NCBI GenBank assembly: GCA_907163375.1
Contig: CAJQUW010003387.1
Coordinates: 248,001 to 312,000 of the forward strand
Direction of reading: 5' to 3'
DNA length: 64,000 nt
Origin: Prostheceraeus crozeri
Taxonomy: Eukaryota > Platyhelminthes > Polycladida > Euryleptidae
Part shown: piece by piece, positions 4,757-59,380 of the stretch
How the letters are laid out: each line of letters opens with the position of its first letter
Numbering within the stretch: position 1 is the stretch's first letter
The notes under the pieces: model-generated
Seen by the model: only the letters and a program-made list of their open reading frames with translations
What the model was told of the DNA's origin: nothing
The model's database searches: none
Made by a program: the position numbers and the translations under genes

Positions 4757-6289
4757 CGAGGCACGCACATGTTACTTTAACTTGATTGATGAAATTAGTT
4801 TTGAGCTATATCATGATGGCCATGTTTTTTACTACCAAAAGCGGGACACTAAATAGTCAGTAGTAGAAGAAACATGAAAAACAGCGGACTTGCATCTACA
4901 TGTTCATAATGTCAATGCGTTGAATCACGACGCGCACAAAATTACTGTGGTAACAAGGAGCTTTTCATTAGGATTTCTTCGGTTAGTTCATTGCCACGTG
5001 CATGCCGAATGAAACCAGTGTTGTCAATTCAGCTTTTCAAGAAACTCAGCTAACCTAGTTTACCGGAAATTAACCAAGTTAAGTTAAGCTCGGCATACTG
5101 AGTTTCCTAAAACCTCAGCTAGAACTCAGTAAGATCTTCCAGCAATACTCGGTTAAATCGGTTACAAAGGAAAAATACATCAAAATATCAAAATAATATT
5201 TTAGCAGCATTATCACTAAAATGATTATCGAAATAATTGATTAAAAAGCCGAAAGCTGCATTTTATGCCATTTTGTTTCTACTATTTCGTCTTCACAGCC
5301 TGAGTACCTAGCTTTTCTTCCTAGCTTGGGTCAAAACCCAAAACCCAAGCCCAAGGTTCAATAATTGAGTAGAATCAAGTAAGCGAAGTACATTGCTTGT
5401 ATTTTTTGCTGCCATAAGAATTCTTCTATAGGCCAAAATTCCTATTGGTCCATGAGAAGTGTGGTATTAGTGTGAAACGATTTTTTTATTGCAATAACTG
5501 CAATTAGTAGCCTAAGTATGTGTATCACGTTATAAAGCTTTCTTATTTTAACATACACTGATATACTGACTAATTGAAGATTTTTGATCTAATTATGATT
5601 GAATTGCGCATTGCTTATAACAAAGCAATTCCTTTCATTTTATCAATCAGAAATATAAACAGACTTGATAAATGGCAGCTGCATAGTCAGTGCATTGCTA
5701 AACATGCTTAGAATACGAAATTGGAAATAATTCATTTTTGGATAGATGTCGGCTATTGCAGAAAGTTTAAGGGTGTGAAGATAACTACTGCGAAGATATC
5801 CATGTAATATGCATGAAATATGCAAATATTTAATGTGCAGCAAATTACATGTAAGCTTGCAGCAAATGCAATATGTATGAACTTTCAATGCGCGGCATTG
5901 TCAAACCCAGAGTGAAACATCCATTCATCACTAGTATTTGATTTTTGAAATATTCTGTGAATTGAGTGAAACTTTGATTAAAAAATCAGAACTTCATGAT
6001 CTTATCGCGCCTCAAATCAAAATATCAATTTTATAACTTTATTTGTGTAGGTCGTATATGCAGCATTAATAGTGCAGCAGACCCAAGTTTTGAATAGAAA
6101 AAACGTTTTGTATCACTTACCCAGGGTCGACCGAAAACCCAAGGTCCAACCTTGCAAACTATTAGAAACATTATTATTAAGGTATATGTTATAAGCGCTT
6201 CAATCGAGAGCTTTTTCATCAAAGTTTGGGGGAAGAGTATGAGTCATTTCATCATCTAGGTAAATGTCCCCAAGTAGAAAATTAAAAAC
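4757..6289. other. AT-rich DNA, no recognised gene
   Basis: No protein similarity is recognised. Around 5025-5160 there is a loose repetition of AACTCAGCTAA-like words, too degenerate to delimit. Nothing else stands out. Confidence 0.4.
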
Positions 6290-6396
6290 TAGTCCGGGAG
6301 CTAGCGTGAAGTTGTGCAGGGAACGAGGCAGTACACAAAACTTTTACATAGCATAGTACACCTCTAACCTGCTGCAAAACTTCGCGTCTGCCGGAT
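6290..6396. mobile_element. Short foldback/MITE-like element, ~107 bp
   Basis: The left end (AGTCCGGGAGCTAGCGTGAA) and the reverse complement of the right end (ATCCGGCAGACGCGAAGTT) form an imperfect ~30-bp inverted repeat around a short centre. The left end also resembles the left arm of the much larger foldback at 8290 (AGTCCGGCAGC, then GCAG.GAACGAGGC). The two therefore look like small and large members of one terminal family. No coding capacity. Confidence 0.5.
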
Positions 6397-6736
6397 CAGA
6401 TCATTTGCTTTTCAGAAATAGAGAGGATAACACAATCCTATGTATTTCCAGTGGTAAAATTGTGACATTTAAGGCGTTGATTCCATTTTTTCGAATTTTT
6501 GCTCATAAAAGTTACACAAATTGGTATTTTGCTGAACTGGTTATTACAGAAATCATCTACAGATCATGATCTTTCAAATGAGTTATCATTCAGTGACAGA
6601 GGATGAAGTAAAGTGCACAAACAGACATTTTTCGTTGGTGTGACTTCAAATTTTAACATAGAAATTTCAGGAAAATTGTTGATATACTTTGACGAAAAGT
6701 GTCTGTTTGTACACTTTTTTTGTACACACACATTTC

Positions 6737-18177: not shown

Positions 18178-19152
18178 TTAACCCTCAGAGACCTGAGCTT
18201 TTTCACACCCTCTGAGACCTGAGGGGGGGGTCCAGTGGACCATTTTAACATATTCTCAGTTTACCTGCTTAAATCGATATCAAAACATTAGGAAAGTTGA
18301 TTTTAAGTAAAACAATGATGTTTGCGTGTAGCAGGTCGGTATAACGAATCCCTTGAGTGACTTTCAGCCTTCTCAGTAAACACGTGCGAAAATATGGTGT
18401 TTTTGTAAGTCAATCACATTTAGTACAGCATCATTTGTACTGGGAGGCGGCTTTGCGATATTTTGTGTCACCATAAAGCCTCAGATAGTTGATTTTGATG
18501 AAGTTGATTTAATTCATGCAGCTAATCCTTTCCATTTGTACATTCCTTCAAATTTATCCAAAGCTATCAGAAATAGACCTATAATGAGTCAAAATTGCTG
18601 TGCTTCTAGAACCAAAAACAGCTGTGGAGATCTCAAACTTATCATTACTGCTGTGAAAAGTTTGTCATCAATCAGTTTTTGGTGCTCAACTATGAATATG
18701 ATAATAGCTTTCTTTTCGGACATCGATTTATGTCGAGTTGTTCATATAGGCCAACCAGTCACGCGAGATCATGTGCGAAAGCAAAATATTCACATTTTGC
18801 GATCTTCCAACACATTGCACATCTACGAGCATGATGCAAAAAATGAATAAATGACTTTCACTCTTTATACACCATCGTGGACATGTTCGAAATCATTTTT
18901 CATCTAATTACAAAAATTTTGTGATGGAATTTCTACACCCTCTGAGACCTGAGGGGGGGCCAGTGGACCACCTTGGCCTATCTGGCATACTTCTACTGAT
19001 TCAATTGAAATGAAATAACACTTGCAGATTCACTGTCAGAAATGATGATTTTGTATGGACTTGAGTGGTTGATATATCGTCAGCGTAAAAATTGAAATAG
19101 AAAAATGTGGCTCCGGGGTCCACTGGACCACCCCTCAGGTCTCTGAGGTTCA
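18178..19152 (+). mobile_element. piggyBac-like non-autonomous element, copy 1
   Basis: The left end is TTAA at 18178 followed by CCCTCAGAGACCTGAG. The right end, reverse complemented, is CCTCAGAGACCTGAGGGG, next to TTCAA (a one-base change from TTAA with an offset). A second copy of the terminal motif lies just inside the left end (18211, then GTCCAGTGGACC) and another at about 18942 in direct orientation. The mirror-symmetric GGTCCAGTGGACC/GGTCCACTGGACC is also terminal. TTAA plus CCC ends suggest piggyBac. A ~104-codon open frame (18536-18850) resembles nothing I know. A ~650-bp interior segment recurs at 57232-57881. Confidence 0.6.
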
Positions 19153-31589: not shown

Positions 31590-31663
31590 CATAGCATTTT
31601 AGCGAAGCTTGGATTTTATCGGTCCCATGTCTCAGCTAACTGTGCGGCACGAACTGAATTTCA
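31590..31663 (-). repeat. Outer piece of Penelope left arm, cut off by the Sola-like insertion
   Basis: GAAGCTTGGATTTTATCGGT and GTGCGGCACGAACTGAATTT match, in reverse complement, 42849-42930 at the outer end of the right arm. This copy lacks ~17 bp present on the right (TTCCCTTCGGAACAGAG-like). The homology resumes at 38154, on the far side of the transposon. Confidence 0.8.
31660..31663 (+). repeat. 4-bp target-site duplication, left (TTCA)
   Basis: TTCA immediately precedes GGGTGAATTCAGC. The identical TTCA follows the right terminus at 38154-38157. The empty site at 42848-42851 (minus strand) has a single TTCA. Confidence 0.9.
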
Positions 31664-32041
31664 GGGTGAATTCAGCTAGAACTCCCGATTTGATGTCTTC
31701 TGCTGCTCAAATATAAAATAATGTTATTATGACTGCAAAATTTTTTCACTGATTAATATCAGTTCAAATTGCTTAGGTACAAATATTCTTTTTTCTCAGT
31801 TATCACTTCTTTGAGCAGTAATACATGATCAAAATCCAAGAACATGCCAAAAACAAGTGTCTTCAATGCGACAAGGGTATCTTTCGACAATTTCTACGGG
31901 TTGATAGTTGAAATTTGCTGCTTGATGATTTACTAATATATTACTCAGTAGAAATATATATTTCTAAAAATATAAATTCCGTTCATTGCAGTTGTATACT
32001 TAGTGCATGCCACCACAAAAATACATGTCCTCGAAAATATA

Positions 32042-32443
32042 TGTTCCTTAACCGACGCTATTAAACAATGAAAGAAAAATGATATTTTGAAGTATTTTGG
32101 AATGATGCAGTAGTCTATATAAGTTATGAAAACATAATAAAATATGAATGCCGAAACTATAAAGGAAATTTCCCTATTTTGAAGATTTTGTCATTTGTCG
32201 TTCTGATTTTGACCACAAAATGTCCCTTAACCGACGCCGATGTTAAATCATTTTTAGAGTTAACTGCTAAGTTTGTAATTGATATACACTTATTATGTGA
32301 TTGAGATAAAATATGTGTTCGAAATGAGACAAAAAGAATAGCAATTAAACACCTCTTGCAGTCAACAATATCGCAAAACATTCACAAAACGTCCATTAAC
32401 CGACGCCGTCGGTTAAGGAATAAATGGCGTCGGTTAAGGGACA
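32042..32443. repeat. 5' subterminal iterons TGTCCCTTAACCGACGCC
   Basis: Copies occur at 32042-32059 and 32390-32407 (imperfect) and at 32220-32237 (perfect), all in direct orientation, and in inverted orientation at 32405-32420 (partial) and 32426-32443 (perfect complement). The third and fourth overlap to form a palindrome centred on GCC. The same 18-mer forms a tandem array at the 3' end. Such end-biased repeats are typically transposase-binding sites; this role is inferred. Confidence 0.85.
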
Positions 32444-32850
32444 TGTTATACGATAGAAATCTCTAGATTCGTTAATTGAATCTTATGTTGACTAATCTTC
32501 TAGATTCGTTAACTGAATCATTTGAAGTTTTCTGTCAGAATGTTTTGAAAATACAGAGCAAGTCAAGTCGGTCATGGACTCGTAGACATGGGGTATACTA
32601 TCTAGGAATTCATGAGTCTCCATAAACGCAAGACGTGATGACGTAACATTCAGATTTCCGACAAGTTGGTTCGTCGAATTGTAGCTCAACTAGTCAATTA
32701 GTGCTTCTTTTTTTCCGCCTCCGACGCCCACTATCTGCAACAGTCACAAAATATCTTTGACATGATGAAGATATTGATGTGCGCGCGCACATTTTCTCAG
32801 CTCGTTAGGACATAATCATGAGTCACTGTCGAGTTTGGGAAAAACATCAA

Positions 32851-32927
32851 TATAAAGATATCTTAAGATTCAAGCGTCACAAATTGACGGTCTGCTCTCG
32901 ATTGCATAGTGAAGCTCACAAGCAGGG
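32851..32927 (+). promoter_or_regulatory. Possible TATA box and 5' non-coding exon of the transposase gene
   Basis: TATAAAGATA at 32851 lies about 75 bp upstream of a strong 5' splice site, GCAGGG|GTAAGTA at 32927/32928. The coding ATG at 34136 is preceded directly by an acceptor (TTCTAACAG), so an upstream non-coding exon is needed. This is the best candidate, giving a 1,208-bp first intron. Prediction only. Confidence 0.45.
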
Positions 32928-34135
32928 GTAAGTAAATGACTATCATCACGTTTCATTTTGCTTTGATATTCCTTTGATGATGCAAACTCAGTATTAATCC
33001 TAAGATCTTCCTTTCGGTGCTGCAGATTTCATAAGGTAGATGAATAAAATCGATCCTTCTTTTTCTTACCAAAGTTGAAGCTATTCATAGACAAAGAAAC
33101 ATATAGTCTTGCATCATCAAAAGGTACTTTTGAGACCATTGTTGTCTCTTTCTTTTCGATGTAATTCCTTAACCCGGTTCTTGGGGGTAGGAACTTCTCC
33201 ACACCTTCTTTAAGTTAGCTGACTTGTTTTAATAAGGAATGATTATCAGCTAGATGAATTGATGTTTAAATTTCTTTGCTGTTAAGGATTTAAATAGGTT
33301 GATAGTTCACCTATCAGAATTTAAGTAAGACTGAATTTAAGTAAGATTTAAGTCATTTTTCATTGAAATTGCTTAAGTTGATAAATAATCCATTGTGTAA
33401 CTTAAAGCATCGTCAAATCGTCGTAAAGTAGGCTTACGTCTCTATTCTTATACGTTGGAAATGAGTAAAATTTCAGTGCGCGATTTTCTAAGTAGCCTAT
33501 AAAGATAGTGCCTGAATAAACGATACATAGGCCTAACCTCCTTTTATCACTTAGTAGGTCATTATCAGCTTCAAATTATCTATGCATAATCCAAGAATTT
33601 GAATTTAACCCTAACAGAGGTTAATCATAGAAAGTCTACAGCCATAGAAGGAGGTTATGCCACATATTGGAATCATTGACATCTTTGACGTCTCGCGCCA
33701 AGGACATTCTGTGCCAATAATTCCAATATTCGTACTACATGTATATCTATCACATAAAACGCATGACATAAGACATAGCCTAAAACTCAGCTGTAAGTAT
33801 CTTTGTTATTAACTGATAATTGGATATATTTTGGAAGTTAAGTTAAGTAAAATTTATGTAAATATTAGAACATAACGTCGATGTATCTCAGGTATTTATT
33901 GCGAAGACTACTTTTTATCTCTTTGATGTCTTATTATTGATAGGCTTGTCTACATAATGTCGTAATGTCGCAAGTTTCTCGTTCGTGTCATAATTAATCA
34001 TCATGTCTACTAATGATATGTAAATTAAAATGTCTAATTAATAAGTACCTACATACTGTAAGCGATGAGTATATTTACAACCTTTCTATGAAAGTAGTAG
34101 TAACTGAACATTTACTAGACTTCCTCTTCTAACAG

Positions 34136-37100
34136 ATGCCGCAAAATATCGAATTGAAACGCGCTAGGGATCGTAGATATCGGGAAAGAAAAAGAAATGA
34201 TCCGGAATACAGAGCCCGCAGATCAGAGGCAGTGAAGCGTAGTCATAAGAGAAAACTTGAGACCGAAACTCCTCGGGAAAATAGAATAAGGAAAAGAAAA
34301 GACAGAATAAGAAAACAGCAATATAGAAAAAAGAAAAACGAGGTTCTCCTTCCTCTTCATGTAAATCAGGAGCAGGAAGAAATTCTCTTCCTAAATTTAA
34401 GCTGTTCTTCAGCCAAGTCAGATGCGGCAAAAGACAGAGAAAAGCGAAAAATGAAGCAATCGCTAGTAAATCTAAAGCGAGAGAATATACAGCTACAACG
34501 AAGGGTTTGGAAGTTTTCGAAAAAACTAATTCGCAGTCGTAGAAAGATTGAGGCCCAAGACATACCGAGAGCAACACATAACTCGCCTAGAAAACTAGGG
34601 TTAGACGACATGCAGTCATGTAAACGTACTCGAAGAACACTCGTCGCTCACTACAGATTGACAAGATATTTGAGATGCAACCCTCAAACAAGAAAAGTTC
34701 TCCTTTCGGCTGCTAGGAACATTGTTCGAAAATATCAAGGAATGAAAGGCACATTCAAAAAGTCCTCTATTAACTACAAGTCTATGAAGAAGGTTGATTC
34801 AAAGCCTCGTCCGAAGAAAATGCCACCAAACGTCATAACCGAATTTTATTGCCGCGATGACAACAGTCGTTTAACGGCTGGTAAAAAGGAAACCATTACG
34901 CGGAATAGACAGAAAATCCAAAAGAGATATCTGAATTTTTCTATTGACTTCTTATACGAAAAGTTTACAAGCGAGCACGGAGATGTTGTTGGCAGGACCA
35001 CATTCTACCTCAACAGACCTTTCTTTGTTGTTAAACCGAAGATCAACGACAGAGAACAATGTCTATGTCTACAATGTGCCAATGTTCAGGTTAGTTCTAT
35101 AAAGTTTTAAGCCGTAAAATGTATAAAATCAAATACTTTATTGTGCAAGAAGGTGTGACAATACATTTATTAGAAATATTATCATATCATAAGACAGAAA
35201 TGTTGAAATAGCCATTTCGTAAAATCCATTGTACATTGTATTCATTTAACTTATGTAACCAAAATCTAGGTTCTTAATCTTATACGGAAGAATACTCTAT
35301 CTATCATAGAATTTCACAGAAATTTAGTGCATAATGCATACCAGCTTACCAGATATCAATTATGAAATTTAAATAAAATTTAATTTAAATTTGCCAGTGG
35401 CTTATTTAAATTTCATAAGAAATTTATTTGACCTGAACAGTACAACTTAAGTTATTCAGTATAAATTGATGCATCATGTAAAAGCATGTAATTGATTCAT
35501 GGTTAAGGAAAACATAAAAACGTTTAAATATAATTCTGAGTTTTTTCATACAGTACGATTATAAACTGAAATGGAAAAGTAGTATATCACGAGCTGCTGA
35601 TACAAATAAAGTTCTTCGCGAATATGCCGGCATTCAATTTACACGATGTGCATGTACGCGTATAGATTAACTTACTTATCTTCACGCCTTTATTGGAATC
35701 TAAATATCGCTACGGATTCTTCCGAGATATTTTATAAAGTGATTGAGGTCATTGCTCTGATGAAAGTTCTGAACGAATAACAGCGCTTTAAATTTTCATC
35801 TACTATAAATAGGCAAATTCGATAGCTGGTAACTTGCTTAAATTCCCTTTTTTCAGCTGATGGTGGATGCTCTGTACGGTCACAATATCCTCAATAATCG
35901 AGATCTTCCGACCCTCATCAACAGAATCGTGTGCTCAACCGATTCCATAAAGTGCGTGGAACGTAAATGTGAAACATGTGCTACGCTGAATGCTTCTCAA
36001 ATGAGTAATGTTACCGCAACCTTTATCACGTACTATCGGTGGGAACGCAATCAAGATGAGGCAACACATTTCATCAGTACGAAATGTATGCAGGTAAGGT
36101 TGACTTATGAAAAATGATCAGAATTTTATCAACGTTTTGATTTGTTAGTTGATAAACAGCTAATTCAGAGTTTTTAGGCCTATTCTAGGAACTTATTTAC
36201 AAATTATCAATTAAATAACGTAAAACAAAAAAATAACATAAAAAAGCGTAAATAACTTCACATTGATAGGACGGGCGTGGAAAATTTTAGTAATAGCTAT
36301 AAGTATCGTCAACAAATTGGATCTCAGAATCAGCTAGTAATAAATAATATCGCAACATCGATACTTAATTCGTAGCGAGGAATTTACCATGTGCGTATAA
36401 GTGATTATTTGAATTATCTACATATATTTTCTGTTATATTTCAGAAAATCGAAAGTGCTGTTGGACTCGTACGACAATTTGAGGAAAATTTGGCTAAATA
36501 TGCGATTCATCTCTTCAGAGTCGTTAATCAGTTCCGGCAAATTCGATTTGTGAAGTCTAATTTATCCGAAGATGAGATGATAATTCATATTGATTTTTCC
36601 GAGAATTACACAACGAAAAATAGTATGGAAGTACAAGCCGCCCACTTCGGAAATCACCATCAGATAACTATCCATCAAGGTGTTTGCTACACTAAAAACA
36701 AGCCTCCACAATGCTTCGTGACCTTATCCGATGATAATCGCAAAACTGCAGAGGAGATTGCAGCTCACGTCAATGCATTCCTCCTCGACAATCATTCGAT
36801 GATGAAAAAGGTACGGAAATCAAATATCTAGGCTATATGATACTAAATACACTATGAAAAGTTTGTATCCGAGAAAAAGTACTTAAATTCGTATCACCTT
36901 ATAAATTGATTTAATATATTTTAGATTTTAATTTTTTTTAATTTTAATAATTTTGTTATAGATATGATTTCCTATTCGCAAAGAATTTGTTTGAAGATAT
37001 TTGTTGATTTGCCTATCAACAACATGTTTCCATTCAATCATGCTTCGTTTTCTTATGCAACAAATTATAGATAACTTATAAAGTGAGTATTAAACATACG

Positions 37101-37742
37101 TGCACTAATTAGTTGAGCTCATTTTTGTTTCAGATAACGATTGTGTCGGACTCCCCTCTGAGTCAATATAGAAATCGCTCGATGTTATATTTGATGATGA
37201 AAGTGTGTATCGCTCATGGTATGGAGGAGTATGAATGGATATACACGGAAACGGGTCACGGGAAAGGCGCACCGGATGGGCTTGGTGCTATAGTAAAGCC
37301 GATGGCCGATAACCATGTGTCCCATGAAAGACATTCTATCCAGTCTGCAAGAGACATCATTCCTCTTCTATCTCAAACTAAGATAGATGCAAAAGTGGTA
37401 GGTTTTTCTATTATTTCATTTTGTTGTGAATAAGTTAATTTTGATCAACTGATTTTCGAGTAATCTAAAGGAATAAAAAACAAAATAAGCTTACATTGTT
37501 TTAATCCATATTTTCCTTTAATTTATAACTTTGAATGTTTCTTTCAGGTGAGCAGTAGAGAAATCGATGTAATGAAGAATATGCTCAATAATATCCGACT
37601 ACGGCCTATAATTGGTATCGCCAAATGCCATCACGTGGTTTTTCAGAAGGAAAAAATCATTTTCCGGGATTTGGCTTACAACTGCAGTAGACCTATTGGA
37701 TGCAAATTCTTTAATTCACAACATTGGCAATATCTGTACTGA
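34136..37742 (+). CDS. Sola-like transposase, five coding exons, 671 aa
   Basis: The coding exons are 34136-35089, 35857-36093, 36445-36810, 37134-37397 and 37548-37742 (TGA). Every junction is GT-AG (donors GTTAGT, GTAAGG, GTACGG, GTAGGT; acceptors TTTCAG), every intron is phase 0, and the frame stays open throughout. Residues ~1-70 are extremely Arg/Lys-rich with bZIP-like repeats (RRYRERKRNDPEYRARR), probably DNA binding and nuclear import. Around residues 245-330 lie DDNSRLTAGKKET, RNRQKIQKRYL and CLCLQCANVQ. The catalytic candidates are Asp in IIHIDFSENY (exon 36445), Asp in ITIVSDSPLSQYRNR at the start of exon 37134, and Asp in TGHGKGAPDGLGAIVK, giving a DDD pattern. CxxC-like pairs in exon 35857 (CVERKCETCATL) may bind zinc. 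It should excise and insert this element. No polyadenylation signal is obvious before the 3' array. Confidence 0.82.
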
Positions 37743-37851
37743 CAATGACTTTTGTGACTTTTGTGATTGGTTGCATATTTCTGAAGAAATACTGTCATGA
37801 AAACTTTGAGTATTTCAATTGCCTTTTAATTCCCCCAGCTGGCACAGTCTG

Positions 37852-37978
37852 TAGTCCCTTAAATAGCGCTTGATGTCACTTAATCGAATCATGTTGTCCC
37901 TTAACCGACGCCTAATGTCCATTAACCGACGCCTGATGTCCCTTAACCGACGCCTGATGTCTCTTAACCGACGCCTTA
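37852..37978 (+). repeat. 3' subterminal tandem array, six 21-bp units
   Basis: The unit is TGTCCCTTAACCGACGCCTGA. The last four (37895-37978) are nearly identical: TGTCCCTTAACCGACGCCTAA, TGTCCATTAACCGACGCCTGA, TGTCCCTTAACCGACGCCTGA and TGTCTCTTAACCGACGCCTTA. Two degenerate units precede them. The array begins only ~110 bp after the transposase stop codon and ends ~175 bp before the transposon end. Confidence 0.9.
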
Positions 37979-38153
37979 TTTCTTAAAAATCACGTCTATA
38001 ATCAAAACTCGTAAAGTGGTGTGGTTTTCATTGCTTTTTCTGCAATCTACAGCAAATTTCGATTCAGATATGCGTTTTATTTGTAAAAATTGAGTTACAA
38101 AATCTGAAAGACAATTTTGACCCAAAAAGTAGGAGTTGTGGCTGAATTCACCC

Positions 38154-39055
38154 TTCAGAACCCCTTTGAAAGCACTGTCAGAATGGTAAGATTACCGGTT
38201 TGAATATTTATCGGTATGGCTAGGTAGCCAGTCACGGAGAACTTTAATCCATATTGAGAACGCTCTATGAGGATTCTGGAAAAGGCATTTTGGCATCCGC
38301 GTCGTTTTCGAATGTGAAGTCGATGCATTTGCTGTTAAACACTATTATGCCAATCCCTATTGTTGGCCATGTTGGCCATTGCCAGGAATTTGTGGCATGA
38401 TTTCATGCAAGACCTCTATTCCGATTGGTGAACTTCATAGCAAATTGCAATCCACGAACAATTTCTCATATGAGACTGCACTACTGATTTTACTTTTGGG
38501 AATATTACTTGGCCAGTCATTATATTTTTAGAGATTGGAAAGAGCCAATAAAAATTAGTAGAATTTATCAATAATTGCTAATTAGTGCAATACATTTCTG
38601 CTACTTTCCGTAGCTATCATCAGGCAGTAAATGAATGATTTACAGAATAAAATTTGAACTTCACATCAAGAGGTACATATTGTTTTGCTGATGTTGGGTG
38701 ATTGTTGTCTGAACGAGAAATATAGACAAATAATAAACCCAACCACTGTTGTAATTATAGCCTATTTCTTAACATGGATATCAAGACTTCAAGACAAGTC
38801 CTCGCAAAGTAATTTTAATGATAGCGAATGTCTTCTAATTCCAGGCAACGACTAACTTATATGATAAATTGTGATATTAAATTCATGATGCATGTAATTA
38901 ATTATCGCCTCTTCTGTTATTCCTTATTATTATTATGTCACGTGCTTGTACATTCCATCTGTCACCTCATTGATTTTACATAACCATTTTATCATTTTGT
39001 CACTCATATAGATCATTTTTAAATCACGTGTTTCAAATTCAAGACAAACGTTTAA
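38154..39055 (-). repeat. Penelope palindrome, left arm (complement of 41737-42851)
   Basis: Reverse complement of the right arm over ~900 bp. It includes TTTGAAAGCACTGTCAGAAT at the outer end, GGCCAACATGGCCAACAATA-like blocks, and a segment homologous in antisense to the 3' untranslated region at 40628-40790. The right arm carries an extra ~215 bp near 42087-42303 that is absent here. The arm continues outward at 31590-31663, on the other side of the Sola-like insertion. Confidence 0.88.
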
Positions 39056-39106: not shown

Positions 39107-39474
39107 TTTTTGATCATTGTATGAGGATAACTGCTAAGTTGAAGAGTTCTATGAAAACTATTCTCACACTTTTTTTATTTTGCATCATTCGAGCATCGTT
39201 CTGCTATTCTGTCTTTCTCGTTTTTTATAAAGTTCATTTTTACTTCTTGAAGTATATGGGAACGATAATGCACCAAACGGTTTTTCTTTGCTGGTTTACG
39301 ATAAAAGTCGAAAGTGCGTTCATCTGAAGCATGTAGTGTAACGCAGACGTCAAGAAGTCTCAGACGATTATGATTGCCACCAGGTAATTCAACATGAAAT
39401 TTTGTGTTGTCGTTTTGAGAATTAGGATGTTGAAGAAGTAACATTGCTTGATATTTGTTTTGTACAATCGCAAA
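39107..39474 (-). pseudogene. Penelope-like RT fragment, inverted copy
   Basis: On the minus strand it repeats, at about 95% by eye, the part of the RT frame from FAIVQNKYQAM to RCSNDAK and the bases beyond. It is the complement of 39596-39962, separated from it by a ~120-bp spacer. Motif C (YVDD) lies in the spacer side and is absent from this copy. Plus-strand frames here are antisense artefacts. Confidence 0.85.
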
Positions 39475-40458
39475 TGACAGTGGCTTGTATACCGTCATTC
39501 ATAATGTCTACATGGACACCATTGAAGCTACCGCTCTGATAAGAATGAGATCAATGCACGATGAACCATTTTTCATGCGCTATGTCGATGATTGTTTTGC
39601 GATTGTACAAAACAAATATCAGGCAATGTCACTTCTTCAACATCCTAAATCTCAAAACGATAACACAAAATTTCAAGTTGAATTACCTGGTGGCAATCAT
39701 AATCGTCTGAGTCTTCTTGACTTCTGCGTTACACTACATGCTTCAGATGAACGCACTTTCGACTTTTATCGTAAACCAGCAAAGAAAAACCGTTTGGTGC
39801 ATTATCGTTCCCATATACTTCAAGAAGTAAAAATGAACTATATAAAAAACGAGAAAGACAGAATAGCAGAACGATGCTCGAATGATGCAAAATAAAAAAA
39901 GTGTGAGAATAGTTTTCATAGAACTCTTCAACTTAGCAGTTATCCTCATACAATAATCAAAATCGCAAGCAATAAAGAAACGACAAGAAAAAAGGAAACG
40001 AAGTGAACAGAATGTTGAATACATGCATTTCCCATTTCCATTCGTCTCCGAAAAGTAGACAAACAAATCAAGAACGTGTTTGGCCGAGAAAACATAACTG
40101 TTAGAGTAACAAGGAAGAACAAAACCTTACGAAGTGCTTTGAAGCAAAAGCGACCAAATCAAGAGTGCACACTTCAAAATTGTCCCATCAGAGGCAAAAA
40201 AATGTGTTTCCAAAGGTGTGTAGTATATCAAGTTACATGTGACAAGTGCAAACAATTTCATATTGGTGAACACAGCACCAACATCAACTCATCCGTATTC
40301 AAACACTTGCAAACGTGCAACATCTCTAAGACAAGAATAACAGCAACAATGATTCAACCAACCTTCGTTTGAGAGAAGCCTATTACATTAACAAGCTACA
40401 ACCAAAGATCAACTCAAGACACGAACTTGACAGTTATAAAGATTTCCTCTTTCATTGA
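39475..40458 (+). pseudogene. Penelope-like element: RT palm end plus GIY-YIG endonuclease, frameshifted
   Basis: The first frame (to 39895) holds VYMDTIEATAL, then FFMRYVDDCFAIV, the catalytic YVDD of Penelope-type reverse transcriptase, LSLLDFCVTL, and FYRKPAKKNRLVHYRSH. After a frame jump near 39893 it continues KKCENSFHRTLQL; further jumps near 40003 and 40050 lead to FPFVSEK and then VDKQIKNVFGRENITVR. The GIY-YIG domain follows: CVVYQVTCDKC, QFHIGEHS, KHLQTC. A last jump near 40345 gives RLREAYYINKLQPKIN with a candidate catalytic Glu, ending at 40456-40458. RT motifs upstream of YVDD are missing. At least four frame breaks make it a pseudogene. Confidence 0.85.
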
Positions 40459-41736: not shown

Positions 41737-42930
41737 AAAACGTCTGTTTTCAATTTGAAACGCGTGATTTAAAAATGATCTATATGAGTGACAAAATGAT
41801 AAAATGGTTATGTAAAATTAATGAGGTGGTAGCAGGAATGTGCAAGCACGTGACATAACAATAGGGAATAAAAGAAGAGGCGATAATTCATTACATGCAT
41901 CATAAATTTAATATCATAATTTATCATATAAGTTAGTCGTTGCCTAGAATTAGAAGACATTCGCTATCATAAAAATTACTTTGCGAGGACTTGTCTTGAA
42001 GTCTTGATATCCATGTTAAGAAACAGGCTATAATTACAACAGTGGTTGGGTTTATTATTTGTATTTATTTCTCGTTCAGACAACAATCAGAGTTTATTAA
42101 TAAATTTTGTTTGTAAGTTTTGGAAAGCCAGTCTATATACAGTCATGCAGTTGTCATGCATTTAATCAAATAGAATTGTGAAGTTATCAAGTAACTCACC
42201 TGTGATCGAATTGACAATTATGAAATACAAGTATTGCGAGAGCTACTGAAATTTTCTTCCAAAATTCGTGCACGAGCTTCTTATTATTGTTAATTTGTAG
42301 ATTGTCACCCAACATCAGCAAAACGACATGCATCTTTTGATGTGAAGTTCAAATTTTATTCTGTAAATCATTCATTTACTGCCTAATGATAGCTACGGAA
42401 AGTAGCAGAAATGTATTGCACTAATTTGCAATTATTGATAAATTCTACTGATTTTCATTGGCTCTTTCCAATCTCTAAAAATAAATGACTGGCCAAGTAA
42501 TATTCCCAAAAGCAAAATCAGTAGTGCAGTCTCATATCAGAAATTGTACGTTGTTTGCAATTTGCTATGAAGTTCACCAATTGTAGTAGAGGACGTGCAT
42601 GGAATCATGCCACAAATTCCTGGCAATGGCCAACATGGCCAACAATAGGGATTGGCATGGTAGTGCTTAACAGCAAATGCATCGACTACACATTTGAAAA
42701 CGACGCGGATTCCAAAATGCTTTTTCTAGAATCCTCATAGAGCGTTCTCAATATGGATTAAAGTTCTCCGTGACTGGCTACCTAGCCATACCGATAAATA
42801 TTCAAACCGGTAATCTTACCATTCTGACAGTGCTTTCAAAGGGGTTCTGAAATTCAGTTCGTGCCGCACAGCTAGCTCTGTTCCGAAGGGAACCTGAGAC
42901 ATAGGACCGATAAAATCCAAGCTTCGCTGC
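41737..42930 (+). repeat. Penelope palindrome, right arm, with empty Sola-like target site
   Basis: Complement of 38154-39055 plus 31590-31663, so the homology runs uninterrupted across 42848-42851, where the left arm carries the 6.5-kb transposon. It includes the 3' segment with the CTAATGA...GAAA motif and an extra ~215-bp insertion at ~42087-42303. Frames here, such as those at 42802-43038, are repeat translations. Confidence 0.88.
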
Positions 42931-43855
42931 AATGCTGTGGTCGTAGTGAAGAGCAATGTCGGTTGAGGTGCAGGCGAGAGTCAGGTGGGACGCTGAATGA
43001 GAGGCGAAAAGGGGAAAACAAAGAGCAATCATGAGCATGGATGTTGAACGCTCTGAGGTAGACAGGCACTCTCTAGATCATGATATGACTCTGTGCGGTA
43101 TAGAGGTAATTGATAGAGAACAAATTTGGAGGAAGAGGATTGTTAAAGAGGCTGTCTAGACAAAGAAATTCAAATATTCCAATCGCACAAAACACACCCT
43201 CAGCTCTCATTGGTGCTATATTCTTAAATCCCGCGACTAGATTGGAGTCATGAAGAGCGACGTGTGCTTCTAGCAGACGCTATGCGGGTTGTGTTTTATT
43301 GCCAAGCAGTGTCTCAATTTGAACCTATGATACTTTAAAGGAATTAAGGAACATGGTACTATATAGCACATCATTGTGGCTAAAACAATTAAGCCGACCC
43401 TTGTTATTTTTCTATTTTAATTAATTAACAACTGTAAGCAATTGTGAGAGCCATATCAGACATCTCATTATCTATACTCATTCCAACTTTTCGCAGACTT
43501 GTGTGTGCTTTTGTGTAATTATTTAAAATATAACTTTATTAATGGCATCATATGATTATAAACTGAAATGAATTAAAATGACGTAAAATTGCAACACGTC
43601 TGCACATTAAGTAGGCGAAAGAGGCTTCGCAAATTCTTTGATTTAATCAGGAATGTCAAAGCGCCAAGTGGTCGAAAATTGACTTTTTTTGTAGGTGCTG
43701 TTGGAAATTCGCTGCAATTTCCTCTTGAATACAGGAATAATTGTAGACTATCACGTGTAGGCCTTTCACGCGGTTGACTGCTTCCTAAATCGTGATCCGA
43801 CCAGCATTTGAAAGAGATTATTTCTATTCATTGTGAGTTGCTGAAGATGCAGATA
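42931..43855. other. No recognised feature
   Basis: Flank beyond the right Penelope arm. No gene recognised. Confidence 0.4.
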
Positions 43856-46214: not shown

Positions 46215-46690
46215 AATAGCGCGTGTGCCCCCCTCTAGCTCCAATACATTCAGTAATCAGAGATGGCATGGATTCACAAAGTTTCTGAATGAAGGATGTT
46301 TCAAGGAGAAGCCACTGCTCTGTCTTTCAGAGAGAATCTTCAGGGACACTGGTGGAAGTGAATAGCGGTCTCTCACTCACCGCCCAAGCTCGTCCCAGAC
46401 TTGTTCAATGGGTGACAAGTCAGGTGAGCGTGCAGGCCAGTCAAGGGTTTGAATGTTCAATCTCCTCACAGTGGCAATGACAGCCGAGGAGCGATGTGGT
46501 CTTGCGTTGTCGTCTTGGAAGACGAGATCCTCCACCCTGACCACTGGGGCAGCAACAGGAAGCACAATTTCATTGAGATACCTCTCTCCAGTCAACGTGC
46601 CTTTGATGATGACTGCTGTTGTTCGTCCGCCATGCCAAATGCCACCCCACAGCACAACACTTCCACCACCATATCTGTCGTGTTCAATTG
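46215..46690 (-). pseudogene. Tc1-type transposase fragment (C-terminal catalytic part)
   Basis: Minus strand. It begins HDRYGGGSVVLWGGIWHGGR and continues YLNEIVLPV, LVFQDDNARPHRS (second catalytic Asp) and WPARSPDLSPIEQVWDELGR (catalytic Glu, DD34E spacing). A TGA interrupts the frame downstream. Homology then goes on to the family's usual ending GARGGHTRY with a stop at about 46216. The N-terminal DNA-binding domains and first Asp are absent, and upstream sequence has no terminal repeat. A different subfamily from the 51.8 kb element. Confidence 0.85.
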
Positions 46691-49009
46691 ATTGAAGAAA
46701 TACGTTTTCTGCTTATTGATTTTTAAGATTTTCTAAAATAATGCTGATGCGAAATTTACTTATGCATAGTAAAAATCGACTTTGATAATTTGTAATCTGC
46801 TTTCATCAGCAACTTTTTTTCTGCAGTTTAAATGGCTTTGACTTCTTTCGGAGGACGGAAGCTTCCGCACCTCTTAAACTGATTCAAACATCGGGTTAAA
46901 ATAATGCTTTAAATAAGAGACGAAATCTTCCGTCGTCAAATTGTAATCACCAGAGCCGATTAATTTTAACGTTTAATGTCCTGTGCACGGTTTTTTCAAC
47001 AGATTCAACGTTGCAAAACCAATAACTGAAGTGATGACTTCATGAGAACTGCATTAGGTTTGCACATCAGAAACTATTGAGAAACAATTTGACACAGATA
47101 AAGACAACACTTTCTATAGAATGTCCTATTTGTAAACATTGATAAACATTGATCCAAAACCAAAATCGCGCGGCCAAATTTGCCCGCGGTCAATGAAAGC
47201 GCGCAACATGTGTGAAGAGCTCCATAGGCTCTATTATGTTAAGCAAACACCTGCGTGACTTCCGTGCTGCAAAAAGTCGCATGTGTGAAGTACCCCTTGC
47301 TGTACGACAATTGGATATTGAGTTGTATCCTCAGATGAAAAGTGACAACAGACCTGAATACCTGCCACTTCATCCAATATTAAGAATCATCAGCAGGCCT
47401 GGTTCACATCTCTCAACATCGACACAACTCCCTATTTAAAGTTGCAGTCGTGCACGGGTGCGAGATTCGCAAATAGTGAGTTTAAAGTGATATTTAATGA
47501 ATGCCGGTCGCAAATTTCACTAATTTGCTAATTGCAAATCTAAATTTTGCAAAATACACAAAAGTAAGTAAAACTTACTTGAATCAAAATTCATAAATTG
47601 GGCAAAAGACAATGGTAAAATATGGGATGCGTTCCAGACGTAGAAAATTTACAGATCAACTACGCATTCTGTCTAAAATAGATGATTATTTCGAACTCTA
47701 AATTAAAAGGAAAAGTAAGGTTGAGTAGCCGATGTATCTATGTGAAATTTTGTATCCTGAATTATGCTCATGTGGATTTTCACATGTCCAAAAATGGCCA
47801 CTCTGTCATCTTCTTTAATTATTTTAGCAGAGCAAGGTAAGGATAAATATACGTAGAACAACATGGTGTGCATTCCTTCAGCTTGTTCAGCCATTCATGT
47901 AGATGTCATCAGCTAATTTTGGCTATTCCGAACCGTTCTGATGAAAGATTATATGACGAAGGGTACCGGACATCTGCTAAGGAATTGTGGGCTTATGAGA
48001 TGGTTCAAGCATAAGGAAAGCTCAAATATCATTCAAGTGATGCTTAATGTGAATGCGTCTGTTGAGCACATGCATGTAAAAAAGCAAGAAAAGAGCGTGA
48101 TTGTGTAAAAAGCTCAGAGATGGGTTCATCTGTCGCGAGTCTATCTCAGCCATTGTATGCGATGGCAGAGAGAGGTGGAAAGATCCGTCTCCGTTTGGTT
48201 TACGTGATTGGCCAAGAGCACGCAATGCGTAAGGAAAGTTGCATTAGGGAACATACGATCTTTCGGTTTCACATTGAAAAGTGGAAATCTGCCAAGTGAT
48301 TATTACCTATCTTTGACTCAATGTTTCTCCGTGATAAATTCATCAAATGGAAATATTATTCACATCGCTCGACTCCTCACGATCTAAATTTACTGACTGT
48401 GAACGTTCAATGTTGTGTCAATGATTCAGTTCGTTAGAATTCAGGCTTGAATTTGCATTGCGTTCAATGGAAAATGGATCTTGCTACCCCTTGGGGCTAG
48501 TTCTAAGCGTGACCATCAATATTAATAAATGTCATCTCTAGACCAAACAACGCAGACAGACAATGCAATCTATTTCTATGGTAAAAAGTAAGCACACAGT
48601 AGACGATACCTACACGCTCAAAAAGTTGAGTCAGGAGCTTATTAATTTAATTATACAGCATTGTGATCATTTTTCTCATCATGCATGTTAAGTATAACCT
48701 TGATGTGATTCAGGGCAATTTTGAAACCATCTCATTTTATTGTTTAGAAAGCTCTCAATTTACATCAATTGACTGACAATTTTCCAATTATTTTTGCATC
48801 TTGTCAATGGGCTTGTTCTATAAAGCGTCTTTAACTAAATGAGAGCTTAAAGGTGCCTCATTTAAGTGTCATTAAAAGGATGCTATCATTTATTTTGCTT
48901 CATTTAAACGTCATAATCTTTTAATGGAAGGGTGTTCACGAACTCGTCATAAAAAATATCATTCATTAATGGAGCCTAAATGAAAGCAGAATATTTAGAG
49001 GAAGGTGAC
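46691..49009. other. No recognised gene; repeat F copy 2 at ~47315-47525
   Basis: Contains the second copy of repeat F, in direct orientation to 43856-44060, and otherwise unrecognised AT-rich sequence with short open frames. Confidence 0.45.
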
Positions 49010-51285: not shown

Positions 51286-52876
51286 CAGATTGTTTCATAA
51301 AAAATGGATCACCCTTAAACATCGCCTTAACTTCAACTTTGTCTAACTTGAAAACTTGAACTTGAAAACTTGTAAACTTGAACGAATTTCTCTGAAATTT
51401 GGAAGATATGTCAGTTGTGCTTACTAATATCATTGTTGGAAATTTCAAGCATGAATATTGAGTTGTTTTCCTGTTATAGATAAAAAGTAGTAGATAATTT
51501 GATCTTCATTTAGCAATGTTACACAAAATCATACCTCACTCTTATAAAATTACATTTGTTTCCTTTGTTATGTAATATGTTGTTCTACAAGCCAAAAGCT
51601 ATCAAGCAAAACAAAAATAAAGAAAATCGGTCAATCAGAGCCAGTATAGCGCCATTATTCATCAACAATAATGTAACTGCTACATGTGATTAACTGGACT
51701 TCATGTTCCATAGCTTCCTGATTTCGTTGCGGTGGTGTTGACAGCACTCCTGATTGCTTTCAGCTAGAAATCTATCTCTTACCGGTTGAAAACAATACAA
51801 AGCACAAATGAACAATAACGAGATCGCATTCACAAAAGGCAAAGTGTCAGCCTTGCTAGAAATAGGGTTTTCTTTGCGAGCTACAAGCAAGCGACTAAAT
51901 GTCCCTTACACAAATGTGCATCGATGGCATAATGATGATTTTCGACTCTGTCGTAAAGAGGGCTCTGGCCGTCCACGCAAAACATCCAAACATAGAGACC
52001 GCCTAATTTTGAGATTTGTTAAAGTTGATCCAAGTCTCTCGTTAACTGAGATGGCTGCACTAGACTCGTCTATTTCTAAGTCCACTATTCGTAGAAGACC
52101 TATTGAGTCGAATTTCAAGAGCTGTAAGAGGCCCTCTCAGATCGAATTAACAGATCAGCATACAAAAAGACGTCTCAGATGGGCAATGAGTCATTGTCAC
52201 TGGCGAAATCAATGGGATCGGGTTGTCTGGTCTGATGAGGCATCAGTCCGTCTGAAGGATAGTGATGGTCGATTGAGATTATGGATAAAATCTGATCAGG
52301 AAATTCCGAGACATTTACATCGTCCCCGGGTACAAGGTGGTGCGACTCTACTGATTTGGGCTGGCATTTGGACCAATGGCCGCTCTGAACTTCACATACA
52401 GCAAGGAACCATGAATTCTGAACGCTATGTGAATGTTTTACGAATGAACATTGGTCAAATGACAGATCAACTTGTTGCTCCATCGACTTGGGTATTTATG
52501 GATGATAATGCTACGTGTCACAGGAGTAGTAGAGTCAACTTATGCAAGTCTCAATTAAGGCTTAGGACATTATCTTGGCCAGCTCGTTCTCCTGATCAGA
52601 ATCCCATAGAAAATGTATGGAGAAAGTTAGATCAGTCAAAATTCAACGATATCATCGAATCAATGCCTAGACGAATTGGTAATGTCATTGACAAAAAGGG
52701 TAGGGCCACAAAATATTAGCTTCTTAAGAACCGTTACTGTATCATAGTTTATCAGATTAAATAAAGACATTTAAATATATTAGGGACATGAAATAACATG
52801 AAAAATGTTTTCTGCATCATACTCATGTTTTATTTAGTCAAATTTTAGGATGATCCACTTTTTATGAAACGGACTG
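51286..52876 (+). mobile_element. Tc1-type transposon, 1,591 bp with TIRs
   Basis: The left end CAGATTGTTTCATAAAAAAT (then GGATCACCC) and the reversed right end CAGTCCGTTTCATAAAAAGT (then GGATCATCC) are matching terminal repeats, each flanked by TA, the usual Tc1/mariner target. It encloses one transposase frame. It sits 67 bp upstream of MITE copy 6. Confidence 0.92.
51808..52719 (+). CDS. Tc1-type DD34E transposase, internally shortened
   Basis: 303 codons with no stop. Residues ~8-45 form the first helix-turn-helix (FTKGKVSALLEIGFSLRATS). A GRPR hook (SGRPRKTS) follows near 55, then the second DNA-binding part. The catalytic triad is present: Asp in VVWSDEAS, Asp in VFMDDNATCHRS, and Glu in SPDQNPIENVW with exactly 34 residues between the last two. 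After WRKL the sequence jumps to DQSKFNDIIESMPRRI and ends DKKGRATKY. Relatives usually have ~30 more residues at that point, so an in-frame deletion is likely. The first ATG is used and lies ~520 bp inside the left terminus. Activity is uncertain because of the deletion. Confidence 0.9.
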   Translation: MNNNEIAFTKGKVSALLEIGFSLRATSKRLNVPYTNVHRWHNDDFRLCRKEGSGRPRKTSKHRDRLILRFVKVDPSLSLTEMAALDSSISKSTIRRRPIESNFKSCKRPSQIELTDQHTKRRLRWAMSHCHWRNQWDRVVWSDEASVRLKDSDGRLRLWIKSDQEIPRHLHRPRVQGGATLLIWAGIWTNGRSELHIQQGTMNSERYVNVLRMNIGQMTDQLVAPSTWVFMDDNATCHRSSRVNLCKSQLRLRTLSWPARSPDQNPIENVWRKLDQSKFNDIIESMPRRIGNVIDKKGRATKY

Positions 52877-56919: not shown

Positions 56920-57231
56920 GCGTACACTAATGAAAGTCGATCTTGAGACGATTTGATTGTGACCTGTGAGAATGATCAGATGATCCGTAGCAAAAACCTT
57001 AGAAAACCTGATTATCGTGCTTGCAATTGACTAAGGTGTTCAAGACAGTAATTGTGATTACAAGCTGTTGTTACATACTGTACATTTTTACTATAGACTT
57101 AGCATGTTTATGAGTTCAATAATGATCATGTCTGTTGATATCAGAAGTGATAAATACAGGGTGAATAAAAAACAACCGGGCAGTCAAAACCTTGGAAGCT
57201 TTTCTAATGACATCACTCGCATCACGTTTTT

Positions 57232-57881
57232 TGCGATATTTTGTGTCACCATAAAGCCTCAGATAGTTGATTTTGATGAAGTTGATTTAATTCATGCAGC
57301 TAATCCTTTCCATTTGTACATTCCTTCAAATTTATCCAAAGCTATCAGAAATAGACCTATAATGAGTCAAAATTGCTGTGCTTCTAGAACCAAAAACAGC
57401 TGTGGAGATCTCAAACTTATCATTACTGCTGTGAAAAGTTTGTCATCAATCAGTTTTTGGTGCTCAACTATGAATATAATAATAGCTTTCTTTTCGGACA
57501 TCGATTTATGTCGAGTTGTTCATATAGGCCAACCAGTCACGCGAGATCATGTGCGAAAGCAAAATATTCACATTTTGCGATCTTCCAACACATTGCACAT
57601 CTACGAGCATGATGCAAAAAATGAATAAATGACTTTCACTCTTTATACACCATCGTGGACATGTTCGAAATCATTTTTCATCTAATTACAAAAATTTTGT
57701 GATGGAATTTCTACACCCTCTGAGACCTGAGGGGGGGCCAGTGGACCACCTTGGCCTATCTGGCATACTTCTACTGATTCAATTGAAATGAAATAACACT
57801 TGCAGATTCATTGTCAGAAATGATGATTTTGTATGGACTTGAGTGGTTCATATATCGTCAGCGTAAAAAATGAAATAGAAA
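57232..57881 (+). repeat. piggyBac-like element interior, copy 2, lacking both ends
   Basis: Near-identical to 18451-19105; I count only about four or five differences by eye over ~650 bp. It starts inside the element (TTGCGATATTTTGTGTCACC) and stops inside (TGAAATAGAAA) without either terminal repeat, then abuts a truncated MITE. An open frame of 186 codons (57068-57628) runs across the left junction and is therefore not one ancestral gene. Confidence 0.88.
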
Positions 57882-58091
57882 CTGTGGCAATCGAAGCACT
57901 TTGTTGGAACCCACAGCAATGCGCACGTGATGCACGACTTTCTTGCCTATCTCTGTAAGGTATAAGGAATTCCTTTTTGCCCACTTAATAGGTTCCTCGA
58001 TGTGCCGTCGATTTCGAATTATTCACACTTCTAACAAACCGAAGCAGACAAATATAACAAAATAATATTAAACAAAATATTTAATTCTGTG
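57882..58091 (+). mobile_element. hAT-type MITE 'CACAGAATTAG', copy 7 (3' half)
   Basis: From GTGGCAATCGAAGCACTTTG to TTTAATTCTGTG, it matches the reverse complement of the first ~210 bp of copy 2. The left half is absent and replaced by the piggyBac-like fragment; the right end abuts the LINE. Confidence 0.8.
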
Positions 58092-59380
58092 GGCACACCT
58101 CATAAATGTTCTCCCGCTCCCTAAGAAGGATTCATGTGCTCATCGTCCCATTTCCATTTTGCCCTTCTTGAGCAAGTGTCTTGAGAAATTGATTCGAGAT
58201 CTTATTCTTCTACCTTCCCTACAAGGCAAATTCGATCGCCGACAGTTCGGTTTCATCCCAGGTGATAATGGTGGTTGCACTAATGCCCTTCTGACCATTC
58301 GTCTCACTTCCCTTCAACACATCGCTAGCAGCCCCTCAAACTTTTGTCGACTGCTTGCCATTGATTTCAATAAGGCTTTCGATTCACTCAGTCACCTCAC
58401 CTTGCTCCAAAGTCTTGGAACCCTTTTCCCTTCCAATCCCCTTGTAGTGAATCTCATACAAAGCTTTTTGTCAAATCGTTTTCAACGTGTTTACGTTAAT
58501 GGCATTTCCACACCTTGGAGAGAGGTGACCAGTGGGGTGCCTCAGGGCTCTGTGTTAGGACCTCTACTTTTTGTTGTCATGATTAATGATGTCCCACAGT
58601 TCGCTAACACGAAGGTTATTTCGTATGCTGACGATATAACCCTCATTCACTTATCGAATGGTAACACCAGTAATGATCTTTTTCAAGAGGACGTTGACAC
58701 CTTTTGTAATTGGGTAGCCCAAAAGAAAATGACAATAAATGTGAATAAAACCAAATGTATGACTCTTTCTAAGCGTTTTGATCCCACCAGATGTACTAAT
58801 ATTGTTATCAATGATGAAGTCATAGAGGAAGTTGTAAATTTGAAAATCCTCGGTGTTTTCTTTAGTGCTAATTTGACATGGGACTCTCATGTCTCGTTTT
58901 TATACAAAAAATGCTGTAGTATTATGTCCATTATAAAGCGTCTGAAGATCAGTTGTAATGAAGATCATGTTGTGTGGCAGGCATACATGGGTCTTGTTTT
59001 TTCTCGTTTATCATTTTGTTGGCCCATTGTATGTGATATGAAAATGAAACACTTTTGCAAATTTGAACGTCTGGATCGTTTGGCCAAACGTTGGTGCAGC
59101 ATATACAACAAGCCATCCCTAAGACAAATGTTAGATCGTGTTTGCGTTAAACTCATCCGCAAAGTGTCTCATCATCGTGACACTCATCGCCTGTCCTCCT
59201 TTTTCAACGTCCGTCAACATATCAGCAAAGTTAGACATCAAAGGCAACTGTCAGCTCCTCTGCGGAAACCATCTTATTACACCAACTCCTTTGTCAGATT
59301 TTCACAGTTTACATGACTTTGCAGTCATAACCATGTACCGCTCTATGTATTTTGGTTTCAATAAAGCATTATTATTATAA
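58092..59380 (+). pseudogene. 5'-truncated LINE with long open reverse-transcriptase frame
   Basis: The frame is open from the junction at ~58092 to a TGA at 59314-59316; GTG/TTG/ATG positions are all internal. RT landmarks in order: INVLPLPKKDSCAHRPIS and LEKLI; motif A LLAIDFNKAFDSL; motif B SGVPQGSVLGPLLF; motif C VISYADDITLI; then INVNKTKCMTLSKR and LKILGVFFSANLTWDSHV. All catalytic Asp are kept, with no stop or frameshift in ~400 codons, so insertion is recent. AATAAA at ~59360 and a short ATT-repeat tail (to 59378) mark the 3' end. The endonuclease domain and ORF1 are missing, so it cannot move alone. A separate family from the other LINE pieces here. Confidence 0.9.

Follow-up and report, generated by a model that had tools for sequence, protein, structure and literature searches.

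Sola DNA transposons, comprising Sola1, Sola2 and Sola3, were reportedly first described by Bao et al. in 2009, and piggyBac elements create TTAA duplications on insertion. One account describes Sola elements as encoding DDD transposases, generating 4-bp target site duplications (TSDs), measuring mostly 2-9 kb and ending in terminal inverted repeats (TIRs) of 11-1124 bp, and states that they extend to bacteria; the same account gives Tc1/mariner elements a 2-bp TA duplication (PMC10741241). Other descriptions attribute AWWT duplications and 12-21-bp TIRs to Sola2 (PMC3627910), a 4-bp TSD and a 32-bp TIR to a choanoflagellate Sola1 element (PMC6875170), and TTAA duplications to Kolobok (PMC9587614). 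The element discussed here lies in the flatworm Prostheceraeus crozeri, within a 64,000-nucleotide stretch of the 2.05-Gb host assembly that is hereafter called the window (G000:C2812:248001-312000). It is a real, full-length DNA transposon copy with a 4-bp duplication, and an ordinary member of a burst of insertions whose gene is open but worn.

The complete copy spans 6,490 bp on the plus strand (31664..38153), with ends fixed by an empty paralogous site and by other genomic copies, which begin and end at the same bases. Comparison of the termini identifies a left TIR of 22 bp, GGGTGAATTCAGCTAGAACTCC (31664..31685, plus strand), and a right TIR of the same length (38132..38153, minus strand) that matches it in inverted orientation at 20 of 22 positions. 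With up to three mismatches allowed, this pattern occurs in the window only at the two element termini, and shuffled sequences never reproduced it (0/100). An alternative TIR extended outwards by one base was rejected, as the adjoining four bases then mismatch. The sequence TTCA borders the element on the left (31660..31663) and on the right (38154..38157), a duplication supported both by the flank match and by the paralogous site.

That unbroken paralogue of the insertion site lies at 41935..42939 on the minus strand. Both element flanks were joined minus one TTCA and aligned to the reverse complement of this inverted copy. The part at 42305-42939 matches at 92% over 636 columns, spanning the junction without a break and with TTCA present once; both element ends and the 4-bp duplication are thereby fixed. 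The part at 41935-42089 aligns to the insertion-site flank at 97%, and the segment between 42089 and 42305 has no counterpart in the element flank. Additionally, 18 bases lying a few bases from the junction are present in the paralogue and absent from the element's left flank. The right flank itself (38154-38528) is a repeat with an inverted copy at 42477-42851, and the match starts exactly at the element edge.

A DNA search of the host assembly, with 40 of 391 candidates scored, gave at least 70 matches. Twenty stretches were fetched around listed places; 14 carry both element ends and, together with the window, make up 15 two-ended copies, the one-ended L019, L020, L021, L022, L026 and L028 being excluded from the duplication count. 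Perfect 4-bp duplications flank 11 of the 15 (TTCA, ATGT, AAAT, ACAG, ATTT twice, AAGT, AGTT, TATA, ATAT and TCAT), compared with 0.27 on average and at most 3 in a mispaired-ends control. Their first base is A or T in every case and their last base in 10 of 11. TTAA, the duplication of piggyBac and Kolobok, occurs in none of the 11, and the duplications are of 4 bp, unlike the 2-bp TA of Tc1/mariner. The same right flank is found in L016 and L022, and another in L020 and L028; these may be duplicated segments, so the fetched copies are not all independent. One two-ended copy, L027 (G000:C2273), is a short non-autonomous derivative consisting of element bases 1-280 and 6281-6490, with unmatched flanks.

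The element carries a five-exon transposase gene on the plus strand. Exon 1 (34136..35089) provides the start codon and a basic N-terminal half, exon 2 (35857..36093) a set of conserved cysteines, exon 3 (36445..36810) the conserved D447, exon 4 (37134..37397) the conserved D525, E558 and D567, and exon 5 (37548..37742) a C-terminal cysteine motif and the stop. Joined, the exons form an open frame of 671 amino acids (aa), and all four introns are GT-AG. The related protein P0001 aligns over all four exon junctions; of the four 20-residue stretches around them, two are gap-free in the alignment and two have their gap at least six residues from the join. The transposase has an RNase H-like fold, and D447, D525, E558 and D567 are invariant in 42 relatives; E558 is as conserved as the three aspartates, the third catalytic residue being D567 or E558. 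Retroviral integrase catalytic cores, at 10% identity in the structure-match row, have the fold alone in common with it; retroviral termini differ from those of the element, in which no retroviral genes were found. Five PDB chains came up in a sequence search at E <= 1, the best at 0.058, and every one of them was unrelated or lay off the catalytic core. In a viral structure library three matches passed E <= 0.001; none had a TM-score above 0.28, and they had no family in common.

A homologue search yielded 69 proteins at E <= 1e-3 (5221 candidates) and a profile search 23, with P0021 and P0001 common to both lists. The species named in the two lists are arthropods throughout, most rows being unnamed. 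On the nearest tree branch stand P0001, P0086 and P0002, which are 41%, 39% and 38% identical to the window protein over at least 650 residues; these unnamed proteins are known from protein sequence without element ends, and P0002, read by eye, differs by an additional cysteine-rich C-terminal segment. Searched against the host assembly, exon 1 yielded 125 scored matches (2434 candidates), ranging from 100% down to 30% identity. Many of these rows are stop-free, and some are pieces of one copy. The ends of one relative, C965 (51% identical), begin GGGTAAATCC and GGGCAAATCC, its left end having been set at L029:1173 and its right end by eye.

Subterminal iterons, TTAACCGACGC, are present near both ends of the window element. 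The left group (32048..32437) consists of three direct and two inverted units, one of the inverted units having one mismatch, and the right group (37901..37974, plus strand) of four exact units 21 bp apart within a tandem array at 37867-37976. With at most one mismatch, the iteron has 9 matches in the window, all within the element, against 0.46 expected. Seven of the 11 other long copies (L009-L018, L023) have four exact direct units in the left region, and the right array holds from 2 to 10 exact units across these 11. The left iterons of C965 (up to two mismatches) lie at 383, 405, 582 and 750 from the end, compared with about 384, 407, 586 and 755 in most copies of the window family, and an inverted unit follows the last direct unit of C965 by 10 bp, as it does in the window element. 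At the right end of C965 no iteron was found in the 251 bases fetched, which start beyond most of the region matching the right array. This conservation between the two families suggests that the iterons are putative transposase binding sites. An earlier note on this DNA had described a full-length transposon with matching inverted termini, a perfect TTCA duplication, iterons at both ends and a complete spliced gene, and had proposed a search for further copies; the present analysis bears out that description, and the further copies exist.

The family has aged together. A tree of the 12 long elements, window included, is near-star, with several short and weakly supported inner branches; the well-supported groups are L010/L011, L013/L014 and L010+L011+L017+L023, and the window copy sits on a branch of its own, about 1.1% long. 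Divergence of the copies from the family majority is about 1%. Left of the gene, the window copy differs from this majority by 1.05% and the other copies by 1.10% on average; the corresponding values are 0.74% and 0.75% in exons, 0.82% and 0.91% in introns, and 2.19% and 0.89% right of the gene. Drift in the window copy is about equal to that of its broken siblings. Its frame is the only open one among 17 copies that have all five exons, the other 16 all being closed. The majority sequence of those 16 reads open, with a stop one codon ahead of the window's, so the source of the family was probably once intact.

Relative to this majority, the window gene shows 14 nonsynonymous differences, one of them the stop shifted by one codon, and 1 synonymous difference, over 1596 nonsynonymous and 420 synonymous sites. 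The other 16 copies together show 256 and 50, with L019, truncated at its 3' end, alone contributing 68 and 10. Three of the window's differences fall in columns that at least 85% of relatives keep: 72 of 83 relatives have Ala at 501, 74 have Arg at 575 and 72 have Cys at 651. Position 661, where 70 of the 83 have His or Cys, is changed as well. In total, the window protein departs at 17 of 90 columns conserved to that degree, mostly through family-wide departures. The left side also lacks 23, 32 and 69 bp that are present in at least nine of the 11 other long copies. The missing 23 bp contain one iteron unit, and the site of the missing 69 bp, placed by alignment with the 11 other copies, lies at 33003..33004, upstream of the coding exons. 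The earlier note had called the copy free of visible lesions, which is true of the reading frame and untrue of the left side and the protein. Its further suggestion that the copy could be active finds no support: given a gene worn at conserved positions and similarly aged siblings, the window copy is probably unable to move by itself, its activity being, as far as the sequence indicates, probably reduced or lost.

Later movement has occurred elsewhere in the family. L010 differs from L011 by 0.2% and L013 from L014 by 0.3%, and the members of each pair occupy different sites, which dates their movement to after the main burst. An internal deletion is common to L024 and L025, whose duplications differ, and an in-register stop to L013, L014 and L019. 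Such shared lesions suggest that broken copies were mobilised by a working source elsewhere.

Most probably, we are dealing with a Sola-kind cut-and-paste transposon that was inserted in a burst and has drifted since, and that is now probably a weak or dead source. The product of the spliced gene would be an RNase H-like DDD(E) transposase, able to recognise the 22-bp ends and probably the subterminal iterons too. This enzyme would excise the element and insert it into a staggered 4-bp target, giving rise to the 4-bp duplications. The window copy would have entered repeated host sequence about 1% divergence ago, along with its genomic siblings, and then drifted neutrally, its frame being kept by chance. 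It may still be movable in trans.

By published traits, set beside the descriptions of Sola1, Sola2 and Sola3 only, membership in Sola is likely. The element resembles Sola in its 4-bp duplications and its RNase H-like transposase, whose conserved D447, D525 and D567 may be the D/D/D triad, and both its length and its 22-bp TIR fall inside the published ranges; the name itself is a probable one. Several points weigh against this reading. The literature on Sola yielded no reference transposase sequence, and the assignment was made by published description. AWWT, as given for Sola2, fits 4 of the 11 perfect duplications and not the other 7, and four of the 15 two-ended copies (L013, L014, L015 and L027) have no perfect 4-bp duplication, L013 showing GTACT on both sides when 5 bp are taken. 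C965, the only related-family element examined, has the imperfectly matching flanks AGGT and TGGT. No PDB structure reached E <= 0.001 in Foldseek; the top three rows, at 2.0e-3 to 2.5e-3, were a nuclease domain of a viral terminase and two PIWI proteins. The third catalytic residue could be E558, not D567. Finally, the singling out of the window copy as the only open one may be overstated, since just one coding lesion closes the frame in each of L010, L011, L012 and L014, and such lesions may be assembly errors.

It is possible, though rather unlikely, that the element is a cut-and-paste transposon of a separate superfamily, one that resembles Sola in 4-bp duplications and a D/D/D core and yet stands too far from it to be filed there. 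Pfam offers no family that matches the window protein at E <= 1, and none that matches more than 2 of the 42 relatives at E <= 0.1, but Pfam may simply have no Sola model. A 140-aa query piece found no relative in phage records, and none of 22 pattern matches in viral contigs or 217 in prokaryote genome contigs was confirmed as one, even though Sola is said to reach bacteria (PMC10741241); the contig scans, however, relied on three short peptide patterns, and relatives that have lost these are beyond their reach. The duplications agree with AWWT only in part, whereas the published Sola traits that were tested were either found or uncontradicted. Somewhat more doubtful still is the specific proposal that a Pfam-less animal transposase lineage, with more than 100 scored host matches and named arthropod relatives, is a superfamily of its own in which iterons are nearly fixed in spacing between families about 50% identical. 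Current autonomous activity of the window copy is very improbable: its open frame, full ends and TSD would suit an active element, as would the later movement seen in L010/L011 and L013/L014, but the 14:1 ratio shows no trace of recent selection acting on the window copy, and the changes at positions 575, 651 and 501, the private branch and the lost left iteron unit all argue against it. Hardly any probability attaches to a host gene or domesticated transposase flanked by coincidental symmetry. A single open copy among those compared is what such a gene might present, but the empty paralogous site and the other copies with the same ends contradict this reading, and the window copy bears no sign of purifying selection.

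The window also contains other repeats and coding remnants. Just right of the element, 39108-39474 and 39596-39962 form an inverted repeat with 367-nt arms that are 98% complementary and 121 nt apart. Two 300-base segments, 18452-18751 and 57230-57529, are 100% identical at a distance of 38.8 kb and rank among the most alike repeat pairs listed for the window. Open frames at 51790-52716 and 46380-46712 resemble mariner-type transposases in translation. At 58072-59313 lies a 414-aa reverse transcriptase frame, with 44 proteins matching at E <= 1e-40, the best-scoring 53% identical and all carrying PF00078. Elsewhere in the assembly, L031 (G000:C6227) holds a COX1 frame on the minus strand that is crossed by 8 TGA codons, read as tryptophan, and is preceded on the same strand by a frame recognised as cox2; among PDB chains, the COX1 frame agrees best with a group to which the bovine 1occ belongs.

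The probable Sola-kind element adds a member with clean boundaries and a spliced gene to a little-studied transposon group, accompanied by an empty site, siblings and 11 perfect duplications. From this material the family's ends, its target preference and its relative age can be defined, and a profile model can be seeded. The copy also makes clear that an open frame alone is no marker of an active transposon.
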